From the NCBI GenBank assembly GCA_003214355.1, contig QCLS01000008.1, positions 1 to 51,688 of the forward strand: a stretch of DNA of 51,688 nucleotides. The letters run 5' to 3'. Both the position numbers and the translations under genes were made by a program. Every line of letters starts with the position of its first letter. The stretch's first letter is position 1. This DNA comes from Prochlorococcus sp. AG-418-C09 (GTDB lineage Bacteria; Cyanobacteriota; Cyanobacteriia; PCC-6307; Cyanobiaceae). Positions 1 through 13,033 of the stretch are shown here, one piece after another. Below the pieces are notes generated by a model. That model saw only the letters and a program-made list of their open reading frames with translations. It was not told the origin of the DNA and made no database searches.

Positions 1-1360
1 AAAAGCAGAATCCTCTACTCGTAAAGCAATTGAACTTAATCCTAATTTCGTAAAAGCTCATTTAAATCTTGGTAATATACTAAAAGATCAGGGAAAATTG
101 AAAGAAGCAGAAATCTCATACCGCAAAGCAATTGAACTTAATCCTAATTTCGCAGAAGCTCATTTAAATCTTGGTAATATTTTAAGAAAGCTTACTAAAT
201 TAAAAGAGGCAGAATCTTGTGCTCGCAAAGCAATTGAACTTAATCCTAATTTCGCAGAAGCTCATTTAAATCTTGCTAATGTACTAAAAGATCAGGGAAA
301 ATTTGAGGAAACAGAATTATCACTTCTCAAATCTATTGAATTAAATCCTAATCTTTCTAAAGCATACTTTTCATTATCTACTTTAAAATACTCAAATAAA
401 AAATGGCATAATAAACTCTTCTCTGAAACTATCTTAAAAAATAGTTCACAAACAGATCATATTAATATTTATTTTGCGAGATCGAATATTTTGCATAAAG
501 ATAACAATTTCAAAGAAAGTGCCAATAATCTTCAGAAAGCAAATGAATTAAAATTAACACTTAATCCATCTCAACATGATGAACTTATAGAGAAATCCAA
601 AAATTTACTTATTGCCTCTAAAAAAACTGAAATAAATGACAAAGACAACGAGAAATATCCTCAAAGTATTTTCATTGTTGGGATGCCTAGGAGTGGGTCA
701 ACATTAATTGAGTCAATCCTTTCGATGAATTCCAATGTACAGGATTTAGGAGAAATTAATATTCTTGAAGAATCTTATGAAGAAGAAAAAAGAAATTCAC
801 AATGTTCAACGCTGGCAGAATTATATTGGCAAAAAATAAAAAACAAAAAGCAAGAATGGAAAGCTACCACAAATAAATGGTTATATAATTATCAGTATTC
901 TGGTATCATTGCTAGTCAAATACCTAATGCCAACATTATTCATTCTTTTAGAAATCCTCTAGATAATATTCTTTCAATTTACAGAGCAAATTTTGCAACA
1001 GGAAATAAATTTTCTTCTTCCCTTATTGATTGCTCAAAAGTATATTTGAATCAAGAAAATATAATGAATCAATATAAGAAAGAATTTGGCTCAAGAATTT
1101 ACAACTTAAATTATGATTTATTGGTGACCAATCCCGAAAAAGAAATTAAATCCTTAATTGCATATTTAGGTTGGGCATGGGATGATATTTACCTATCTCC
1201 CCATCTAAATAAACGATCTGTTCAAACTGCAAGTGTAGTACAAGTACGTTCCCCTATTAATTCAAAATCAATTGGGGCGTGGAAAAATTATAAACAATTA
1301 CTTCAACCTGCAATTAATCTCATAACCAAAGAGGAAAAATATCGAAACTTGATCAATTAA
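1..1360 (+). CDS. TPR-sulfotransferase protein, 5' end missing (gene starts before the window)
   Basis: The frame is open from base 2, so the first TTG codon at 98 is not the start and the gene begins outside the window. Near-identical 34-residue TPR units begin at 23, 125, 227 and 329 (spacing exactly 102 bp), each opening with K-(A/S)-I-E-L-N-P-N. After a divergent helical linker, a sulfotransferase domain starts near 665: a PAPS 5'-phosphosulfate loop with core GMPRSGSTL (680-706), a 3'-phosphate-binding stretch containing SFRNPLDN (about 944-967), and a C-terminal block with RSVQTAS and WKNY typical of TPR-sulfotransferases. In this family the enzyme moves sulfate from PAPS to an acceptor; the acceptor here is unknown, with surface sugars or proteins the usual guess. 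Such genes are common in picocyanobacterial genomic islands. The family call is firm; the substrate is not. Confidence 0.85.
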   Translation, partial: KAESSTRKAIELNPNFVKAHLNLGNILKDQGKLKEAEISYRKAIELNPNFAEAHLNLGNILRKLTKLKEAESCARKAIELNPNFAEAHLNLANVLKDQGKFEETELSLLKSIELNPNLSKAYFSLSTLKYSNKKWHNKLFSETILKNSSQTDHINIYFARSNILHKDNNFKESANNLQKANELKLTLNPSQHDELIEKSKNLLIASKKTEINDKDNEKYPQSIFIVGMPRSGSTLIESILSMNSNVQDLGEINILEESYEEEKRNSQCSTLAELYWQKIKNKKQEWKATTNKWLYNYQYSGIIASQIPNANIIHSFRNPLDNILSIYRANFATGNKFSSSLIDCSKVYLNQENIMNQYKKEFGSRIYNLNYDLLVTNPEKEIKSLIAYLGWAWDDIYLSPHLNKRSVQTASVVQVRSPINSKSIGAWKNYKQLLQPAINLITKEEKYRNLIN

Positions 1361-1367
1361 ATAATTA

Positions 1368-1388
1368 AAAAAGCTGAGCTCTTTTAAT
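1368..1388 (+). terminator. Possible weak terminator hairpin
   Basis: Eight bases after the sulfotransferase stop, AAAAG and CTTTT can pair across a 7-nt loop that itself contains short self-complementary GAGCTC. The stem is short and AT-rich and the following T run is interrupted, so this is only a candidate. Confidence 0.25.
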
Positions 1389-1518
1389 CCTTGAGATGTA
1401 TTTTTTAGGAATTCTCATAGCATTTATATCTAAAAGATGCTGAGCCGATGCGCATAGAATGCCAGAATTAGACATGAAACATAGTTTGCAAATAATAACT
1501 AGGTTTCTTGTTTACCCC

Positions 1519-1540
1519 TTACTCCCACTCTATAGTACCG
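1519..1540. repeat. guaA-terminus duplicate, candidate distal att site
   Basis: Twenty of 22 bases match 4415-4436 in the same orientation, including an uninterrupted 12-bp core TTACTCCCACTC. Read on the minus strand it encodes Gly-Thr-Ile-Glu-Trp-Glu-stop, exactly the end of GuaA; both mismatches are synonymous third positions (ACT for ACG, ATA for ATT). Similarity stops at the edges of the match. This is the pattern expected of an att duplicate at a protein-coding target. Confidence 0.65.
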
Positions 1541-1607
1541 AGAAAAAGGGCAGTCATAAACGTAGTGATACCAACATGTTTGAACCCAAAATAACACACA
1601 TTTTCCC

Positions 1608-1629
1608 ACGGGAAACCTACGGGAAACCT
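1608..1629. repeat. Tandem pair of 11-bp repeat ACGGGAAACCT
   Basis: Two perfect head-to-tail copies (1608-1618 and 1619-1629) of the unit found in two further tandem pairs near guaA. The pair lies about 70 bp inside the guaA-like remnant. Direct repeats of about this size near att sites often bind the arm-type domain of tyrosine integrases; iteron or transcription-factor binding is also possible. Confidence 0.7.
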
Positions 1630-1719
1630 CTTTTTAGGCAGGTTGTATTCAACAAAAACTCAAAATTAATTACTCTTGGGATCTCTTATTAGTAATCATG
1701 ATTTAATTTTCTCTTTAAA

Positions 1720-2610
1720 TTAGAAAAAATTTTTGTTTATTTCGCTCATAGAACTTTTATTATTTTCAATTAATTTGTTTAAATAAGAGAACTTTGAATC
1801 TAAATCAATCGCTTGTTGCAGGTGTGAGTTTGCATCATGATATCTTCTAATTATTTCTTTAATATTCTTGCCTTTAGGAGAAGATTTAGCAATACCTTTT
1901 TGTGCAAATGCTTCTGCAGAATCAGGTTTTATTTCAATCAATCTATCAAAATCTTTTATGCCATCTTTAAGATATCCAGATCTATATTTGCAAATTCCTC
2001 TTCTTAAAAGCGCTACTTCAGATTTAGCATTTAATTCTATTACTTTATCAAAATCTTTAATGGCAATTTGATAATTCCAATTTGCGTTTTTCACTGAATC
2101 TGCAGCATCGATTAAATCGTATGATTTACCTAAAGCATACTTAGATGAACCTCGTAAAAAATAGTTTTGGTTGTTTTTTGAATCAAGGAGTATATTTTCG
2201 TTGATATATTTAATAACTCTCTTTATGTGTTCGATTAGTAAATATGCATCTTCTTTTGTTGGATGAAGTTCTATTGCTTTTAGAAAATTTTCAATTGCGT
2301 ATTCAAGTGACCCTTCTAATTTTGGAAATACTAACCAGTTCAGACCACTTGCGATCCAATATGAAATAAAGTCTTCTAACTTTGCTGAATCTTTTCTGGT
2401 TACTTCACTGAAATCTTTTACAGCACCTCTGTAATCACCGATCTCTAATTTACATCTCCCTCTTAATGAAATTGCTTCTGATGATTTGGGATTTAATTCA
2501 GTTGCTTTGTTAAATAAATTTAAAGCATCTTTTTGGTTTTCATAATCAAATAGTAATTTTTTGCCTTCTTTTAAATAATATTCAAAATCTTGATTTTCTA
2601 TATCGCTCAT
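1720..2610 (-). CDS. Tetratricopeptide-repeat protein, function unknown
   Basis: A 296-aa protein if it starts at the ATG at 2610; a GTG three codons upstream (2619) is an alternative. It has no signal peptide or membrane segment. TPR-like helical pairs are visible near residues 26-60 (A-L-N-L-F-N-K-A then L-N-P-K), 100-120 (I-E-N-F-L-K-A-I-E-L), 180-225 (I-A-I-K-D-F-D-K-V-I-E-L and I-K-D-F-D-R-L-I-E-I-K-P) and 260-280. The unit spacing is irregular, unlike the near-perfect repeats of the sulfotransferase at the left edge. TPR proteins act as protein-protein scaffolds; nothing here names the partner. It is the left-most gene of the guaA-side island and is read towards the att-like remnant. 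The gene call is solid, the role unknown. Confidence 0.8.
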   Translation of the reverse strand: MSDIENQDFEYYLKEGKKLLFDYENQKDALNLFNKATELNPKSSEAISLRGRCKLEIGDYRGAVKDFSEVTRKDSAKLEDFISYWIASGLNWLVFPKLEGSLEYAIENFLKAIELHPTKEDAYLLIEHIKRVIKYINENILLDSKNNQNYFLRGSSKYALGKSYDLIDAADSVKNANWNYQIAIKDFDKVIELNAKSEVALLRRGICKYRSGYLKDGIKDFDRLIEIKPDSAEAFAQKGIAKSSPKGKNIKEIIRRYHDANSHLQQAIDLDSKFSYLNKLIENNKSSMSEINKNFF

Positions 2611-2822
2611 TAGAAACACTATAAAGATTTTTTATGAGCATATATCGATATAAAATATTCAGCATTTTTTTAAATTAAATATTAATAAACTAATTTTTAA
2701 TAATCTAAATTTTATTACTCATGACGCTTTATTAAAGTGTTTCAACTAATAATTAACTTTAGAAAACTTAATTTGCATTCTCTTCAAAGTTCGCTTATAT
2801 AAGTTTCCCTAAAAAAATAAGA

Positions 2823-3719
2823 ATGAGTGAAGCAAGCATTAATGATAGAACAAAAGTTATTGGAGATATTTTAAGTACCAAATTTGAAGAAATTAAAAAT
2901 ATCGCTATTGGTAACACTTGTGAAACTGGAATTCCAGTGTCTTTTTATGATTACGATGCAATGACTCAAGGACTGCCCAGAGGGGGTTTAATTGTCCTTG
3001 GTGGAAGACCTGCAATGGGCAAGACATCATTTTCTTTGAATATCGCATTAAATGTTGCTAAGACTCAAAATCTTCCAGTTTGTCTTTTTCATTTAGAAAT
3101 TAGCAAGGAACAAATATCTAATCGACTTTTGTCAATGGAATTAGGAATTGAATCTGGGCGATTAAGAACAGGCAGATTACAACAAGATGAATGGTTTGCA
3201 TTAAATGAAGGAATTAATTCTTTGAGTAAATTACCTTTGCATATAACAGATAAACCAATAAGTTCCATTCAGGAGATGCAAGCAATCTGCCAAAAAATTA
3301 AAGAGGAATCGACAAAAAAAAGTTTGGGACTTGTAATTCTTGATTATGTCCAACTACTCGATTACTTACCCATATCAGATGTATCAAATAGGGAAGAGTA
3401 TTTATTGAAATTAGCAAAGAGTCTTAAAAGGATGGCAGAGGAACTAAATGTTCCTGTTATTGTTATTTCTCAACTTAGTAAGGATGTAGAAAAAAGAAGA
3501 AATAAAAGACCAATGTTAAGTGATATCAGAGACTTTGAACCTCTCGAAGTGTATTCAGATATTATTACCATGATTTATAGAGATGAATATTACAATCCAG
3601 AAACTGAAGATAGAGGAATTGCTGAAATAATCACTTGTAAGCACAAAAATGGTCCTTTAGGCACAGTTAAATTATTATTTGAACCGCAATTTACAAGATA
3701 TAGAAATCTTGCTGCTTAA
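2823..3719 (+). CDS. DnaB-type helicase ATPase domain, stand-alone (no DnaB N-terminal domain)
   Basis: 298 aa, SF4 RecA-like ATPase. Walker A is GRPAMGKTS (residues 61-69, Lys67), the following strand carries the acidic HLEIS, Walker B is LVILDYVQLL, then SQLSK, and the C-terminal KHKNGPLGTVKLLF block is almost as in replicative DnaB. The GIESGRLRTGRL stretch looks like cyanobacterial DnaB, so it probably derives from a dnaB copy. Only about 30 short residues precede the ATPase fold, so the N-terminal primase-interacting and collar domain of a roughly 460-aa DnaB is absent. The usual R-E-S-G-S-I-E-Q-D-A-D segment is replaced by R-D-F-E-P-L-E-V-Y-S-D. The catalytic residues look intact, so ATPase activity is plausible. 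It converges with the 157-aa gene. It may serve replication of the element or be a degenerating paralogue. Confidence 0.85.
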   Translation: MSEASINDRTKVIGDILSTKFEEIKNIAIGNTCETGIPVSFYDYDAMTQGLPRGGLIVLGGRPAMGKTSFSLNIALNVAKTQNLPVCLFHLEISKEQISNRLLSMELGIESGRLRTGRLQQDEWFALNEGINSLSKLPLHITDKPISSIQEMQAICQKIKEESTKKSLGLVILDYVQLLDYLPISDVSNREEYLLKLAKSLKRMAEELNVPVIVISQLSKDVEKRRNKRPMLSDIRDFEPLEVYSDIITMIYRDEYYNPETEDRGIAEIITCKHKNGPLGTVKLLFEPQFTRYRNLAA

Positions 3720-3735
3720 CTAGATTAAATTCTCT

Positions 3736-4209
3736 TTAAATTAATAGTTCTAGCGATCCTTTTTTGAAGTCATCTACTCCAGCAATTAAACAACCTTTGG
3801 TAGTCATTCTTTTTAACATCCAATTTGCTGCTTCTTTATGTAAAAGTGGTTGAGGTTGTTTAGATATTACAGAACAACAGTGCCACGGGGTTTTTTCCCA
3901 AGAATTCACATCATCACACCACTGAATAGCGAAGAGCGAATATACCTCACCATGAGATACAGACCAATCTATTGCTGTAAATTCTGTGAATGATGCAACA
4001 TAAAAATATATTTTTTTTGTAGAGTATTTTTCATAAAAAAAAGTTGCTACTGGAATAGTACCTTCAGGATTAAAACTTTCTAACTCATAACGATCGGTTG
4101 AAACTAATACTTGTCCTCTGGAAGATAACTTACCTTCTTTTAAGCAGGTATAAAAAGCATCAACCTCGCCGTGATCATAATCTTTTATTTGATAAGGTTC
4201 ATTTACCAT
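3736..4209 (-). CDS. Hypothetical protein in the guaA-side island
   Basis: 157 aa, not recognised. It has no signal peptide and no membrane segment. It is rich in aromatic residues (repeated F, Y and W, for example FFYEKYSTKKIYFYV and IDWSVSHGEVYSLFAIQW), with a Cys pair in PWHCCSV and a Cys at KGCLIAG near the end. The predicted pattern of alternating strands followed by a helix suggests a small alpha/beta fold. Its stop faces the helicase stop across 16 bp, and its start lies beside the repeat-rich stretch (4210-4414) next to guaA. Codon use and base composition look like the neighbours. It is probably a real gene, perhaps element cargo; no function can be assigned. Confidence 0.65.
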   Translation of the reverse strand: MVNEPYQIKDYDHGEVDAFYTCLKEGKLSSRGQVLVSTDRYELESFNPEGTIPVATFFYEKYSTKKIYFYVASFTEFTAIDWSVSHGEVYSLFAIQWCDDVNSWEKTPWHCCSVISKQPQPLLHKEAANWMLKRMTTKGCLIAGVDDFKKGSLELLI

Positions 4210-4243
4210 TACTCAAAAAACAACCCTAAAAAGGTGGAGAGTG

Positions 4244-4280
4244 TAGAGAAATTTAAAACTCTACGATTTCTCTATAGAGA
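4244..4280. repeat. Nested inverted repeats upstream of the 157-aa gene
   Basis: A perfect 9-bp inverted repeat (TAGAGAAAT 4244-4252, ATTTCTCTA 4266-4274) overlaps a perfect 12-bp palindrome TCTCTATAGAGA (4269-4280). A further GTAGAG/CTCTAC pair lies inside. It sits between the start of the 157-aa gene and the tandem 11-bp repeats, so an operator, a recombinase site or a small hairpin is possible. Confidence 0.5.
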
Positions 4281-4295
4281 CAGGATTTTCACTCC

Positions 4296-4378
4296 ACGGG
4301 AAACCTACGGGAAACCCCTTTGCTCAAATCCATTGCAAACAGGTTAGGAGATTTCCACGGGAAACCCACGGGAAACCT
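4296..4378. repeat. Two tandem pairs of the 11-bp repeat ACGGGAAACC(T/C)
   Basis: Copies at 4296-4306, 4307-4317, 4357-4367 and 4368-4378. Each pair is head-to-tail, all in the same direction as the pair at 1608-1629. The two pairs start 61 bp apart, about six helical turns, so they could lie on one face of the DNA. The last pair ends 36 bp from the guaA stop. The layout fits arm-type binding sites beside an integration core; this is inference. Confidence 0.65.
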
Positions 4379-4414
4379 ACTTTTTGTTACTATCACTAAG
4401 TTTTAAAAGATTTT

Positions 4415-4436
4415 TTACTCCCACTCAATCGTACCG
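4415..4436. repeat. guaA 3' terminus, candidate att core proximal to guaA
   Basis: The partner of 1519-1540 (20/22 identical, 12 uninterrupted bases). It forms the last seven codons of guaA including the stop. Confidence 0.6.
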
Positions 4437-6001
4437 GGGGGCTTACTTGTAATATCAAAGACAACTCTGTTCACCTGCGATACTTCATTAACTATTCTAT
4501 TAGAAATTTTTTCTAAAATTTCGAAGGGAACTTTAGACCAGTCAGCTGTCATTCCATCTTCACTAGAAACACATCTTATAACAACTGGCCAAGCATAGGT
4601 TCTTTTATCTCCCATAACTCCTACGGTTTTAACCGGAAGTAAAACAGCAAAAGCCTGCCAAATTTCATTGTATAGTCCAGCTTTTGTTATTTCATCTCTA
4701 ACTATCCAATCAGCATTTCTAAGGCAATTCAACTTTTCATCTGAGACTTTACCTAAAATTCTAATCGCTAATCCAGGCCCAGGAAAGGGATGTCTCTTAA
4801 TGATTTCATCTGGCAAACCCAAAGCCTTTCCTAAATTTCTAACCTCATCCTTAAAAAGTTTTCTCAATGGCTCAACTAATTTGAATTGTAAATCTTTAGG
4901 CAAACCTCCAACATTATGATGACTTTTAATCTTTACAGCAATTCTTTCACCTGTTTTAGGATCAATATTAGTTCCTGCACTCTCTATAACATCAGGATAA
5001 AGTGTACCCTGGGCTAAGTAATCAAAAGGTCCTAATCTCTTACTTTCTTCCTCAAAAACTCTAATAAATTCAGCACCGATAATTTTTCTTTTTTGCTCTG
5101 GATCTGTAACGCCACTTAATTTGTTAATAAATCTTTCTCGAGAATTTATATACTCAACCCTAATATGAAATTTTTTATCAAAAAATTTCATAAGAAACTC
5201 AGGCTCTCCTTTTCTCATAAAACCCTGATCTATAAACATACAAGTTAACTGATCTCCAATCGCTTTATGTAATAAAAAAGCCAATGTAGAAGAATCAACT
5301 CCTCCAGAAAGTGCCAAAAGAACTTTCTTTTTCTTAACTTGATTTCTGATTCTTGGAATTGCCTCCTCTAAAAAAGTATCAGTTGTCCAATCAGCTTTAC
5401 ATTGACAAATCTTATAGACAAAATTCTTAATTACAGTCATTCCATATTCAGAGTGAACTACTTCGGGGTGAAATTGTACCCCAAATAATTTATTTGAAAT
5501 GTTAGAGATTACAGCATGCGATGTATTATCAGTATGTGCATTTTTTAAAAAATTGGGTGGTAGCCTTTCTATTGAATCTCCATGACTCATCCACATTATT
5601 GAAAGATCTTTTACTCCTATTAACAAATCATTATTAACATCAATATTAATAGGGGCTCTACCATATTCAGCTTTATTATCCGCTTGCATAACCACTCCAC
5701 CCAATTCTTTGACCATTAGCTGCATTCCATAACATATCCCCAAAACTGGAATCCCCAATTCAAAAATCTTATCATCGGATTTTGGTGCATTCTCTTCATA
5801 AACAGAACTAGGACCTCCACTTAAAATTAACCCCTTAGGGTTTATACTTTTTATTTCTTCGATAGATATCGCGTGACTAACTACCATAGAAAAAACATTG
5901 GTTTCTCTAATACGTCTGGCAATTAATTCAGAATATTGAGAACCAAAATCTAAGATTAGTATGGAAGGGTCTCGTTCTTTTGTTAGTAAGTATTGATTCA
6001 T
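4415..6001 (-). CDS. guaA: GMP synthase (glutamine-hydrolysing)
   Basis: 528 aa, normal length. It makes GMP from XMP, ATP and glutamine in the cytosol. The N-terminal class I glutamine amidotransferase has the nucleophile Cys90 in GICYGMQ and the catalytic His-Pro-Glu in [11 protein letters not shown]. The ATP-pyrophosphatase domain has the PP-loop LSGGVDSS, followed by the C-terminal dimerisation domain ending PPGTIEWE. All key motifs are intact. The final seven codons are the ones duplicated at 1519-1540, so the gene end was probably a recombination target while its coding capacity was preserved. cbiD lies 40 bp upstream on the same strand. The purine genes purL and purF lie far away near dnaN, so guaA is not in a purine operon here. 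Confidence 0.98.
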
Positions 6002-11526: not shown

Positions 11527-12529
11527 ATTTCTTAAAGAAAAATTTAATATTGTAATTTCTGTTGGAGACGAGAAAGGAATTGGTCCAGAGGTAATACTGA
11601 AAGCATTAGCTCTAAATGAACTTCATTTAAACAGCAGAATATTAATAGTTGGATCAAAAAAGAATTTAATTTCCGAATATAAATTACTTAAATCACTAGG
11701 AACCAAAAATATTATAAATCCAGAGGAATTAACAATAGAGGATCCTAAAGTTTCAACTTCATTTAAAAACATAGATATGACAAATAGCGGTAATGCAAGT
11801 TTCTATTATCTAAAACATGCGACCGAGATTGTTAAATCATTATCCAACGCAGCTCTTGTGACTGGACCAATATGCAAGAAATCATGGGCCGAATCCGGTC
11901 ATTTTTACTCTGGACAAACTGAATTCCTATCAGAATCATGCAAAGTTAAAAACGTAGGGATGCTTTTTACTGCGAAATCTCCGATAACAGGATGGAGATT
12001 CAACACACTCCTAGCGTCCACTCACATCCCACTTAAAGAAGTACCAAAATGTTTAAACAATGATTTAATAGTTTCAAAATTAGATTTATTCTTAAAGTTT
12101 TTAAAAAAATTTCAACAAAAACCTTTTGTTAAAGTAGCAGGCCTGAATCCCCATGCAGGTGAAGAAGGATTATTAGGTTCAGAAGAAACAGATTGGCTTA
12201 CAGAAACATTAAAAAATTGGGCGGAATTAAATCAAAATGTCAAGTTGGAGGGCCCTATATCGCCAGATAGTTGCTGGATTTCATCAGCTAAAGCCTGGAA
12301 AGAAACAGTCTCTGAGTCCCATGATGGCATTCTTGCAATGTATCATGATCAGGGACTGATCCCAGTAAAGGTAATAGCTTCTAATTATTCAGTAAATACA
12401 ACTATAGGATTGCCCTTTTTAAGAACATCTCCAGATCATGGTACAGGTTTTGATATTGCTGGAAAAGGATTAGCACAGTGCCAAAGTATGATTGAAGCTA
12501 TAAAAACGGCTAAAGAATTAAGTATCTAG
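11510..12529 (+). CDS. pdxA: 4-hydroxythreonine-4-phosphate dehydrogenase
   Basis: 339 aa if the first ATG (11510) is used; the ATG at 11519 (MDKFLKE) shortens the overlap with the upstream gene to 8 bp and is as likely. PdxA oxidises 4-phosphohydroxy-threonine in the DXP-dependent pyridoxal-phosphate pathway. The divalent-metal histidines are present in STHIPLKEV, LNPHAGEEG and MYHDQGLIPVK. The position of the E. coli GHTEF histidine reads GQTEF here, a substitution I believe is common in cyanobacterial PdxA. It ends directly against the accB stop on the other strand, with no spacer. Confidence 0.93.
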   Translation: MIIMDKFLKEKFNIVISVGDEKGIGPEVILKALALNELHLNSRILIVGSKKNLISEYKLLKSLGTKNIINPEELTIEDPKVSTSFKNIDMTNSGNASFYYLKHATEIVKSLSNAALVTGPICKKSWAESGHFYSGQTEFLSESCKVKNVGMLFTAKSPITGWRFNTLLASTHIPLKEVPKCLNNDLIVSKLDLFLKFLKKFQQKPFVKVAGLNPHAGEEGLLGSEETDWLTETLKNWAELNQNVKLEGPISPDSCWISSAKAWKETVSESHDGILAMYHDQGLIPVKVIASNYSVNTTIGLPFLRTSPDHGTGFDIAGKGLAQCQSMIEAIKTAKELSI

Positions 12530-13033
12530 TTATGATTGTTTGACTCTCATGAGCACTTGACCAAATTCGACAGGAGTTCCATTTTCTACAAGTATTTCAA
12601 CTATTTCAGCATTAAATTCCGATTCAATCTCATTCATTAACTTCATAGCCTCAAGTATGCAAATTGTTTGTCCAACTTTTATAGTTGCACCAATTTCGAC
12701 AAAAGGCTCTTCACCGGGGGCTGAGGCCCTGTAAAAAGTTCCAACCATAGGAGAAGTTATTTCAGTAAGATCAGAACGGCCAGGGGGCGGTACAGCTGGT
12801 GCATTAGAGGGGCTTGCTGGTGTTAGAGGTTCTGCCTTTAAAGGTTGACTTAAAATAACAGGATTATCGGAAGTTTTAGTTATCAAAGGTTGATTAGAAG
12901 GATTTGAATCATATATATTTCTCTTGATTTCAAGCTTAAAATCTTCCCCTTCAAGAGAGAATTCTTGAATATCACTTTTAGATATCTTATCTATTAAGCG
13001 ATTGAGTTCATCATGATCTAATTTCATAGCCAT
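12530..13033 (-). CDS. accB: Biotin carboxyl carrier protein of acetyl-CoA carboxylase
   Basis: 167 aa. It carries biotin between the biotin carboxylase and carboxyltransferase parts of ACC in the first committed step of fatty-acid synthesis. The N-terminal helical part is followed by a Pro/Ala-rich flexible linker (about residues 50-90) and the biotinyl domain (90-167) with the biotinylated lysine Lys131 in LEAMKLMNEIE. The start ATG shares a base with the efp stop (TAATG), a sign of coupled translation; the second ATG two codons later is an alternative. The efp-accB pairing is common in bacteria. Confidence 0.97.
   Translation of the reverse strand: MAMKLDHDELNRLIDKISKSDIQEFSLEGEDFKLEIKRNIYDSNPSNQPLITKTSDNPVILSQPLKAEPLTPASPSNAPAVPPPGRSDLTEITSPMVGTFYRASAPGEEPFVEIGATIKVGQTICILEAMKLMNEIESEFNAEIVEILVENGTPVEFGQVLMRVKQS

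Follow-up and report, generated by a model that had tools for sequence, protein, structure and literature searches.

What is the role of three tandem pairs of an 11-bp repeat that stand at the two ends of a small gene cassette next to guaA, the GMP synthase gene, in Prochlorococcus sp. AG-418-C09? The stretch analyzed here, which we call the window, is the whole of 51,688 nucleotides of contig QCLS01000008.1 (GenBank assembly GCA_003214355.1, forward strand). The original prediction for this DNA placed six head-to-tail copies at 1608, 4296, and 4357, two of the pairs 61 bp apart, confined them to the ends of a putative element, and offered two explanations, arm-type sites of a tyrosine integrase or iterons for a helicase. 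Direct sequence search of the window bears out the positions and the exactness of the copies: ACGGGAAACC occurs six times without mismatch, at 1608/1619, 4296/4307, and 4357/4368, giving three 11-bp tandem pairs, and 61 bp separate the starts of the pairs at 4296 and 4357. Based on comparison with relatives, we consider it highly probable that the paired 11-mers are arm-type (P and P') sites, recognized by a family of tyrosine integrases that are specific to guaA and bind arms through their N-terminal domain. This reading draws together duplicated cores, empty sites, fixed geometry, pair sequences that match from end to end of a cassette and covary with the N-terminal domain of an integrase family found at guaA, and cassette parts that are nearly identical despite divergent guaA genes.

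The edges of the element are set by a 22-bp direct repeat, 1519-1540 and 4415-4436 (20/22 identical), that corresponds to the 3' end of guaA and bounds a cassette of ~2.9 kb encoding a TPR protein, a DnaB-type helicase, and a protein of unknown family. The repeat copies, the attachment (att) cores, and the tandem pairs are arranged as follows.

1519..1540, forward strand: distal att core copy (duplicated guaA 3' end), left cassette edge; 20/22 identity to 4415-4436
1608..1628, forward strand: putative P arm, one tandem pair of 11-bp arm-type units; exact copies, starting 89 bp past the start of the left core
4296..4316, forward strand: putative P' arm, outer tandem pair; exact copies, starting 119 bp before the right core
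4357..4377, forward strand: putative P' arm, inner tandem pair; exact copies, starting 58 bp before the right core
4415..4436, forward strand: proximal att core, the guaA 3' end; from the 22-bp repeat comparison
4415..6001, reverse strand: guaA (GMP synthase), host gene with the integration site at its 3' end; PF00958 and PF00117

The pairs are confined to these ends, as had been claimed. Allowing one mismatch, ACGGGAAACC has 9 matches in the 51,688 bases, against 0.75 expected and a count reached by none of 100 shuffles, and the three inexact matches are unpaired and scattered. Across the window's own genome (1.60 Mb, 95% complete), the tandem pair, counted as a pair and not as single 11-bp units, is found at up to three mismatches only at 1608, 4296, and 4357, and a reversed-pair control at the same tolerance gave zero matches.

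We examined the same locus in relatives, using a sample of 266 genomes from the genus, 261 of which have a guaA match (some of them weak, ~1e-6 to 1e-14, and perhaps to another amidotransferase). Regions downstream of guaA were taken from selected genomes, yielding, with the window, 82 guaA loci in addition to 6 regions without guaA; the choice favored longer contigs and loci that carry the pair or an integrase, and is not a random sample (L numbers below denote loci or regions, G numbers genomes). At least one extra core copy is present in 50 of the 82 guaA loci, all from Prochlorococcus-type genomes, and adjacent cores delimit 81 intervals, often in tandem. The ACGGGAAACC pair itself, at up to one mismatch, occurs in 8 of the 266 genomes at 18 sites, every one of them in the DNA downstream of guaA, the co-occurrence with att duplications that the original prediction had proposed to check and the opposite of the wide scatter at unrelated loci that it had named as counterevidence. 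The gene beyond the array could be identified in 72 loci. Empty sites account for 24 of these, with the next gene 41-112 bp from the guaA core and no extra core, and in 28 of the 48 occupied loci the gap between the outermost core and the next gene is 32-77 bp, as would follow had insertion placed new DNA precisely between copies of the core. The core sequence is thus common to the element ends (20/22 in the window copies) and to the host target as it appears in the 24 empty sites.

The distances between pairs and cores are fixed. An offset scan of the first 68 loci, whose sole requirement was tandem identity of at least 9/10 at 11-bp pitch, found a pair to the right of 66 non-guaA cores at +89 in 19 cases and at +81 in 16, and to the left of 132 cores at -59 in 39 cases and at -120 in 18; offsets adjoining these peaks score similarly and represent the same repeats in other registers. 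Exact tandem 10-mers at this pitch fill 194 of 27,300 positions near cores in the 82 loci, compared with 16 of 1,094,336 positions elsewhere, and those 16 form 7 clusters, 3 of which (in L047, L069, and L085) resemble further arms by eye. Repeats therefore stand on both sides of the core at set distances, as arm-type sites should, and the asymmetric arrangement of one pair and two pairs noted in the window recurs with the same spacing across the loci of relatives.

The sequence of the pair, by contrast with its position, varies from cassette to cassette. In addition to ACGGGAAACC, we find elements with ACGTGAAACC, ACGTGTAACC, ACGTAAAACC, ATGTGAAACC, GTGACAAACC, GAGGGAAACC, or GCAACAAACC, others with forms resembling GGTGAGAC or TGTGTGATC, and, in the G185 element, ACGGGAAAC(T/G)CACGGGAAACC. 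Among the 69 of 81 intervals that are longer than 215 bp (elements, hereafter), a P pair is recognizable in 42, a P' pair in 50, and both in 35, and the two ends agree at up to one mismatch in 28 of these 35, compared with a mean of 8.8 and a maximum of 18 in 20,000 permuted pairings, register shifts being allowed equally in observed and permuted pairs. A first, noisier permutation test with floating register had matched 14 of 28 at up to one mismatch (mean 5.9 and maximum 13 under permutation). Locus L035 illustrates the pattern within a single array: three consecutive elements carry three codes, every one self-consistent.

A candidate enzyme is present at the same place in relatives. The G185 element encodes a complete 454-amino-acid tyrosine recombinase (PF00589; L034:6097-7461), positioned inside the P' arms with its start at 210 bp from the guaA core. 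Searching the 266 genomes at E<=1e-5 matched 13, of which five (G185, G177, G113, G147, and G182) have a full-length integrase of this guaA type, starting 203-1013 bp from the guaA core, and one, G257, whose element bears the window's own code, retains a remnant covering the first ~46 residues. The other seven have just matches at 21-24% identity (eight in all), from another recombinase family that lies outside the guaA array in both loci examined (L061 and L123) and was excluded from the analysis. As a separate observation, L061, L123, and L122 (genomes G010, G137, and G009) carry members of that other family, in frames of ~504-518 amino acids at 23% identity, ~10-15 kb beyond guaA, and a second integration hot spot may exist there.

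The same clade extends beyond the genus. Fifteen of 300 family genomes (G113 included) have a match at E<=1e-30, ten of them at E<1e-50, and in nine of these ten loci the 3' end of guaA lies beside the integrase, placing the clade at guaA in other genera too; the tenth, L154, is from another genus and has no guaA in the stretch examined. Eight of the nine have a tandem pair of at least 8/10 identity at one signature offset or the other, six of them at both; the five weaker matches (E 1e-31 to 1e-45) are outside these neighborhood counts. The check that one integrase clade should accompany one kind of site thus gave a positive result in genus and family genomes alike. No relatives of the integrase were found in phage records, and viral contigs gave six distant matches at 23% identity.

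Alignment of eleven integrases shows R276, K313, R384, and Y416 to be invariant; the proteins of L146, L153, and L154 are interrupted by stops and were left out of the alignment and of the covariation analysis. Pfam AB-domain families gave no hit on the guaA-type integrase, and its N-terminal region was therefore considered through a structure model built from the 11 sequences (mean predicted local distance difference test score, pLDDT, 77; predicted template modeling score 0.51; an earlier model from 5 sequences, with a mean pLDDT of 68, is superseded), in which four N-terminal strands are followed by a helix. Lambda Int aligns to this model from residue 14 (Z 16.1, 316 aligned residues), with a large root-mean-square deviation, 13.9, that fits differently placed domains. 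Arm-binding domains are described in the available text of PMC8138268 as three strands and a helix. A tyrosine recombinase with a predicted arm-binding domain is accordingly encoded at this site in relatives, and is not encoded in the window. In a trimmed set of nine integrases, the distance between arm pairs correlates with the distance between N-terminal domains (residues 10-90; r=0.75, p=0.001; partial r=0.73, p=0.0014), compared with r=0.25 (p=0.09) for the core-binding and r=0.18 (p=0.21) for the catalytic domain.

Cassettes and their ends are, moreover, more alike than the guaA genes they adjoin. The window's helicase DNA is 93.1% identical to that of L093 and 90.9% to that of L047, whereas the last ~320 guaA bases are 80.2% and 78.3% identical, respectively; positions 4240-4316, ending in the outer P' pair, are identical in L035 at 77 of 77 bases, against 79.6% for the guaA tail; and the elements of L072 and L097 are 92.7% identical, against 79.7% for their guaA tails. 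These comparisons indicate that parts of cassettes move between divergent strains, which integrase action and homologous exchange would bring about alike.

Under the arm-site reading, the 22-bp guaA end would be the core at which strands are exchanged, and one P pair and two P' pairs would hold integrase subunits through their N-terminal domains while the catalytic domains act on the core; DNA binding by the integrase and excision are both inferred. None of the three cargo open reading frames is an integrase and the window contig has no PF00589 match, the three such matches in the genome all lying on other contigs. The cassette lacks recombination and transfer genes and keeps cores and arms at both ends, the configuration of a cis-mobilizable element, and being without an integrase it would need one from elsewhere: it would have been moved by the integrase of another element whose arm sequence is identical or related, or have traveled with a neighbor.

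The remaining features of the cassette and its surroundings are given below.

1720..2619, reverse strand: cargo open reading frame, TPR protein, 299 amino acids; Pfam TPR matches
2823..3719, forward strand: cargo open reading frame, helicase with DnaB C-terminal domain, 298 amino acids; PF03796, E=4.5e-80
3736..4209, reverse strand: cargo open reading frame, unknown family, 157 amino acids; no Pfam match over cut-off, no PHROGs match
98..1360, forward strand: TPR/sulfotransferase open reading frame, left of the cassette and near the contig start; PF13469, with 71-80% similar stretches in the guaA-region loci of relatives
4243..4264, no strand: small inverted repeat GTAGAG...CTCTAC beside the palindrome; read from the sequence, with similar repeats by eye in many related P' ends
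4269..4280, no strand: perfect palindrome TCTCTATAGAGA, 146 bp before the right core

The open reading frame at 98..1360 is probably cargo of a neighboring cassette cut by the contig end. TCTCTATAGAGA occurs once in the window at up to one mismatch and is not rare in itself (it is present in 29 of 100 shuffles); its place is what is conserved, since 36 of 59 P' ends have it, at up to two mismatches, around -147 or -156, compared with 2 of 59 control stretches. Palindrome and inverted repeat keep their fixed place beside the outer P' pair in integrase-less cassettes as well, and together (4243-4280) they may be the binding site of a regulator, an excision factor, or an accessory protein.

Cargo is generally small, with exactly one open reading frame of at least 70 amino acids in 34 of the 69 elements, and the window's DnaB-type helicase in 3. 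The largest cargo cluster (single linkage, E 1e-5) contains 29 open reading frames from 22 loci, TPR proteins many of which resemble the one at 98..1360 by eye, although TPR repeats may have linked unrelated members. Three cassettes of 6.9-7.2 kb (L037, L072, and L074), 95.7-98.4% identical, carry by eye MurA-like and MreB-like genes, perhaps duplicated cell-envelope functions. Integrase-bearing elements encode serine recombinases (L034 and L101 by Pfam match, L119 and L120 by eye) and, in two of them, helicase-like proteins (DUF5906), over cut-off in L101 only. A protein with an H-x-H motif, seen by eye, is common to L101:2842-3492, L119:3442-4200, L120:2755-3555, and L034:8957-9640, and that of L101 has a weak match, under cut-off, to a phage replication initiator (PF23343, E=3.4e-4); rolling-circle replication of the integrase-bearing elements is possible. 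No capsid family matched among 12 proteins scanned from these elements.

Several observations weigh against the arm-site reading. The P pair is not recognizable in 27 of the 69 elements and the P' pair in 19, and where both are present the ends disagree in 7 of 35, by 2 mismatches in 4 and by more in 3. The outermost recognized core is 417-8900 bp from the next gene in 14 of 48 occupied loci, a further 6 of the 48 have a long interval in which a second core is not recognizable, and the 20/22 identity of the window's cores implies that the copies drifted or came from different events. The usual -59 pair is absent in L121 and L146, and the window genome has no integrase of the guaA-type clade at E<=1e-5. 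The covariation set is small and was trimmed post hoc, L121 being dropped for a pair off the used offset and L120 for its distant sequence: with ten integrases the N-terminal domain gives r=0.71, the core-binding domain 0.33 (p=0.049), and the catalytic domain 0.32 (p=0.12); with eight, one of the two most similar proteins having been removed, the N-terminal domain gives r=0.65 (p=0.011); and with all eleven, every domain correlates (N-terminal r=0.68, p=0.0002; core-binding 0.55, p=0.006; catalytic 0.51, p=0.02).

How much room these points leave for other explanations depends on what each would require of the repeats. Iterons, the other half of the original prediction, would be bound by the DnaB-like helicase of the cassette, or by a replication protein, to start replication. 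Iterons typically consist of tandem direct repeats and a helicase is located inside the cassette, but the closely similar helicase gene of L093 lies between GTGACAAACC arms and that of L047 has a GAGGGAAACC pair on one side and none recognized on the other, 66 of the 69 elements lack this helicase, and the fixed distances tie the pairs to the guaA core and not to a replication gene. With no link to a particular replication gene, we rejected replication iterons, whose probability we regard as minimal. Almost equally little speaks for repeats that belong to a promoter, an RNA, or a coding region of the cargo and are unrelated to mobility, an explanation we rate just as low. The exact paired pattern does occur elsewhere: a search of genome_contigs (84,980 species), whose count may omit records close to the window genome, returned 7 stretches, of which two Prochlorococcus contigs account for 4 and other organisms for 3 (one Bacteroidia metagenome-assembled genome and two Bradyrhizobium), and 3 viral contigs also have it. 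In some unrelated contigs the pair resembles, by eye, part of a longer repeat, as this explanation would have it. Against it, the pairs keep their distances from the core whatever the cargo, the six pair-bearing contigs outside the genus contain neither guaA nor a guaA-type integrase in the stretches examined, and no Rfam match was found in 1361-4500 at E<=0.1, so that the known RNA element named beforehand as a possible refutation did not appear.

The two other explanations concede a role in mobility. The pairs might be bound, in place of the integrase, by a different member of the recombination complex such as an excisionase or a host factor; excision factors can bind repeated sites near arms, and the separate conserved palindrome next to the outer P' pair hints at binding by additional proteins. 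Yet the sequence of the pair follows the N-terminal domain of the integrase above the rest of the protein, and pairs stand on both arms at fixed spacings, making this improbable. A more serious contender, though still unlikely in our judgment, is that integrase-less cassettes are dead relics, immobile now and spread solely by homologous recombination at guaA. A full-length integrase of the clade is found in just 5 of 266 genomes, many of the assemblies being incomplete, and some arrays look like remains: 11 of the 81 core pairs are only 138-148 bp long, 7 of the 11 contain one pair at tandem identity of at least 9/10, and these solo intervals look like products of P x P' arm recombination with loss of cargo, while in L047 (oriented 12420-12541) a P' arm runs straight into P-side sequence inside a single tandem pair, as though the arms of two neighboring cassettes had recombined. 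The greater similarity of cassettes and cassette ends than of guaA (L072/L097; window 4240-4316 in L035) and the agreement of arms in 28 of 35 elements speak against relics, although both are also compatible with homologous exchange.

If the paired 11-mers are arm-type sites, a wider picture can be sketched, which we put forward tentatively as possible rather than probable. The picocyanobacterial guaA end would be a docking platform for small, often single-gene cassettes, and the pairs would be an address code read by the N-terminal domain of each integrase lineage; a rare integrase-bearing element would move unlinked cassettes of the same code, and arm-arm recombination would trim and re-assort the array. 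If true, this would amount to integron-like gene exchange assembled from parts of the lambda type and running on many codes in parallel. The means by which genes pass between streamlined picocyanobacteria, which rank with the most abundant phototrophs on Earth, have long been in question, and the guaA locus offers a precise mechanism that can be counted in its empty sites, its copies of the core, and its coded ends, together with an integrase family that matches them. The locus is, in addition, a natural data set on the choice of arm sites by integrase N-terminal domains at a constant core.

Arm-type sites of tyrosine integrases are known from lambda, L5, and Tn916. The guaA cassettes resemble integron cassette arrays to the extent of being small, often single-gene units, no search for attC or IntI having been made. 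Among the papers listed by the literature searches, which did not take in the first report on tycheposons or Song et al. 2012, we found none describing guaA cassettes in Prochlorococcus or Synechococcus. According to the available text of PMC10872708, tycheposons are likewise cargo elements of Prochlorococcus with tyrosine recombinases, but they use seven tRNA genes and span 4-200 kb, whereas here the target is guaA and the window cassette has no recombinase; with no tRNA found in the window by ARAGORN, we did not assign the cassette to the tycheposons. ICERspD18B, as described in the accessible part of PMC7775301, shares the guaA 3'-end target and a very similar 20-bp core, but it is a 28.5-kb conjugative, resistance-bearing element with a P4-type integrase and AlpA, whereas the cyanobacterial cassettes are small and have an apparently different integrase. 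The Dehalococcoides ssrA islands are also tandem at one gene end and bounded by 20-bp copies, and the portion of PMC3146451 available reports 15 islands without an integration module, proposed to be mobilized with neighbors as cis-mobilizable elements; unlike them, many of the present cassettes are small, have coded arm pairs at their ends, and belong to a set in which a clade integrase lies in 5 mapped elements. The closest likeness in the arms themselves is to Cluster J mycobacteriophages, in which, per the available text of PMC3706429, the core is flanked on both sides by pairs of ~10-bp direct repeats and the N-terminal arm-binding domain of the integrase is variable, its authors seeing in that text no obvious systematic site differences matching different N-terminal domains. 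Here, unlike in these paired-arm phage systems, the target is guaA and not a tRNA gene, the P' arm has two pairs, and the arm sequence differs between neighboring elements and varies with the N-terminal domain. Islands at guaA, tandem integrase-less islands, and paired arm sites are thus already in print, as far as the consulted parts of these sources go, and what seems new is that they occur together, with a single core shared by many arm codes.

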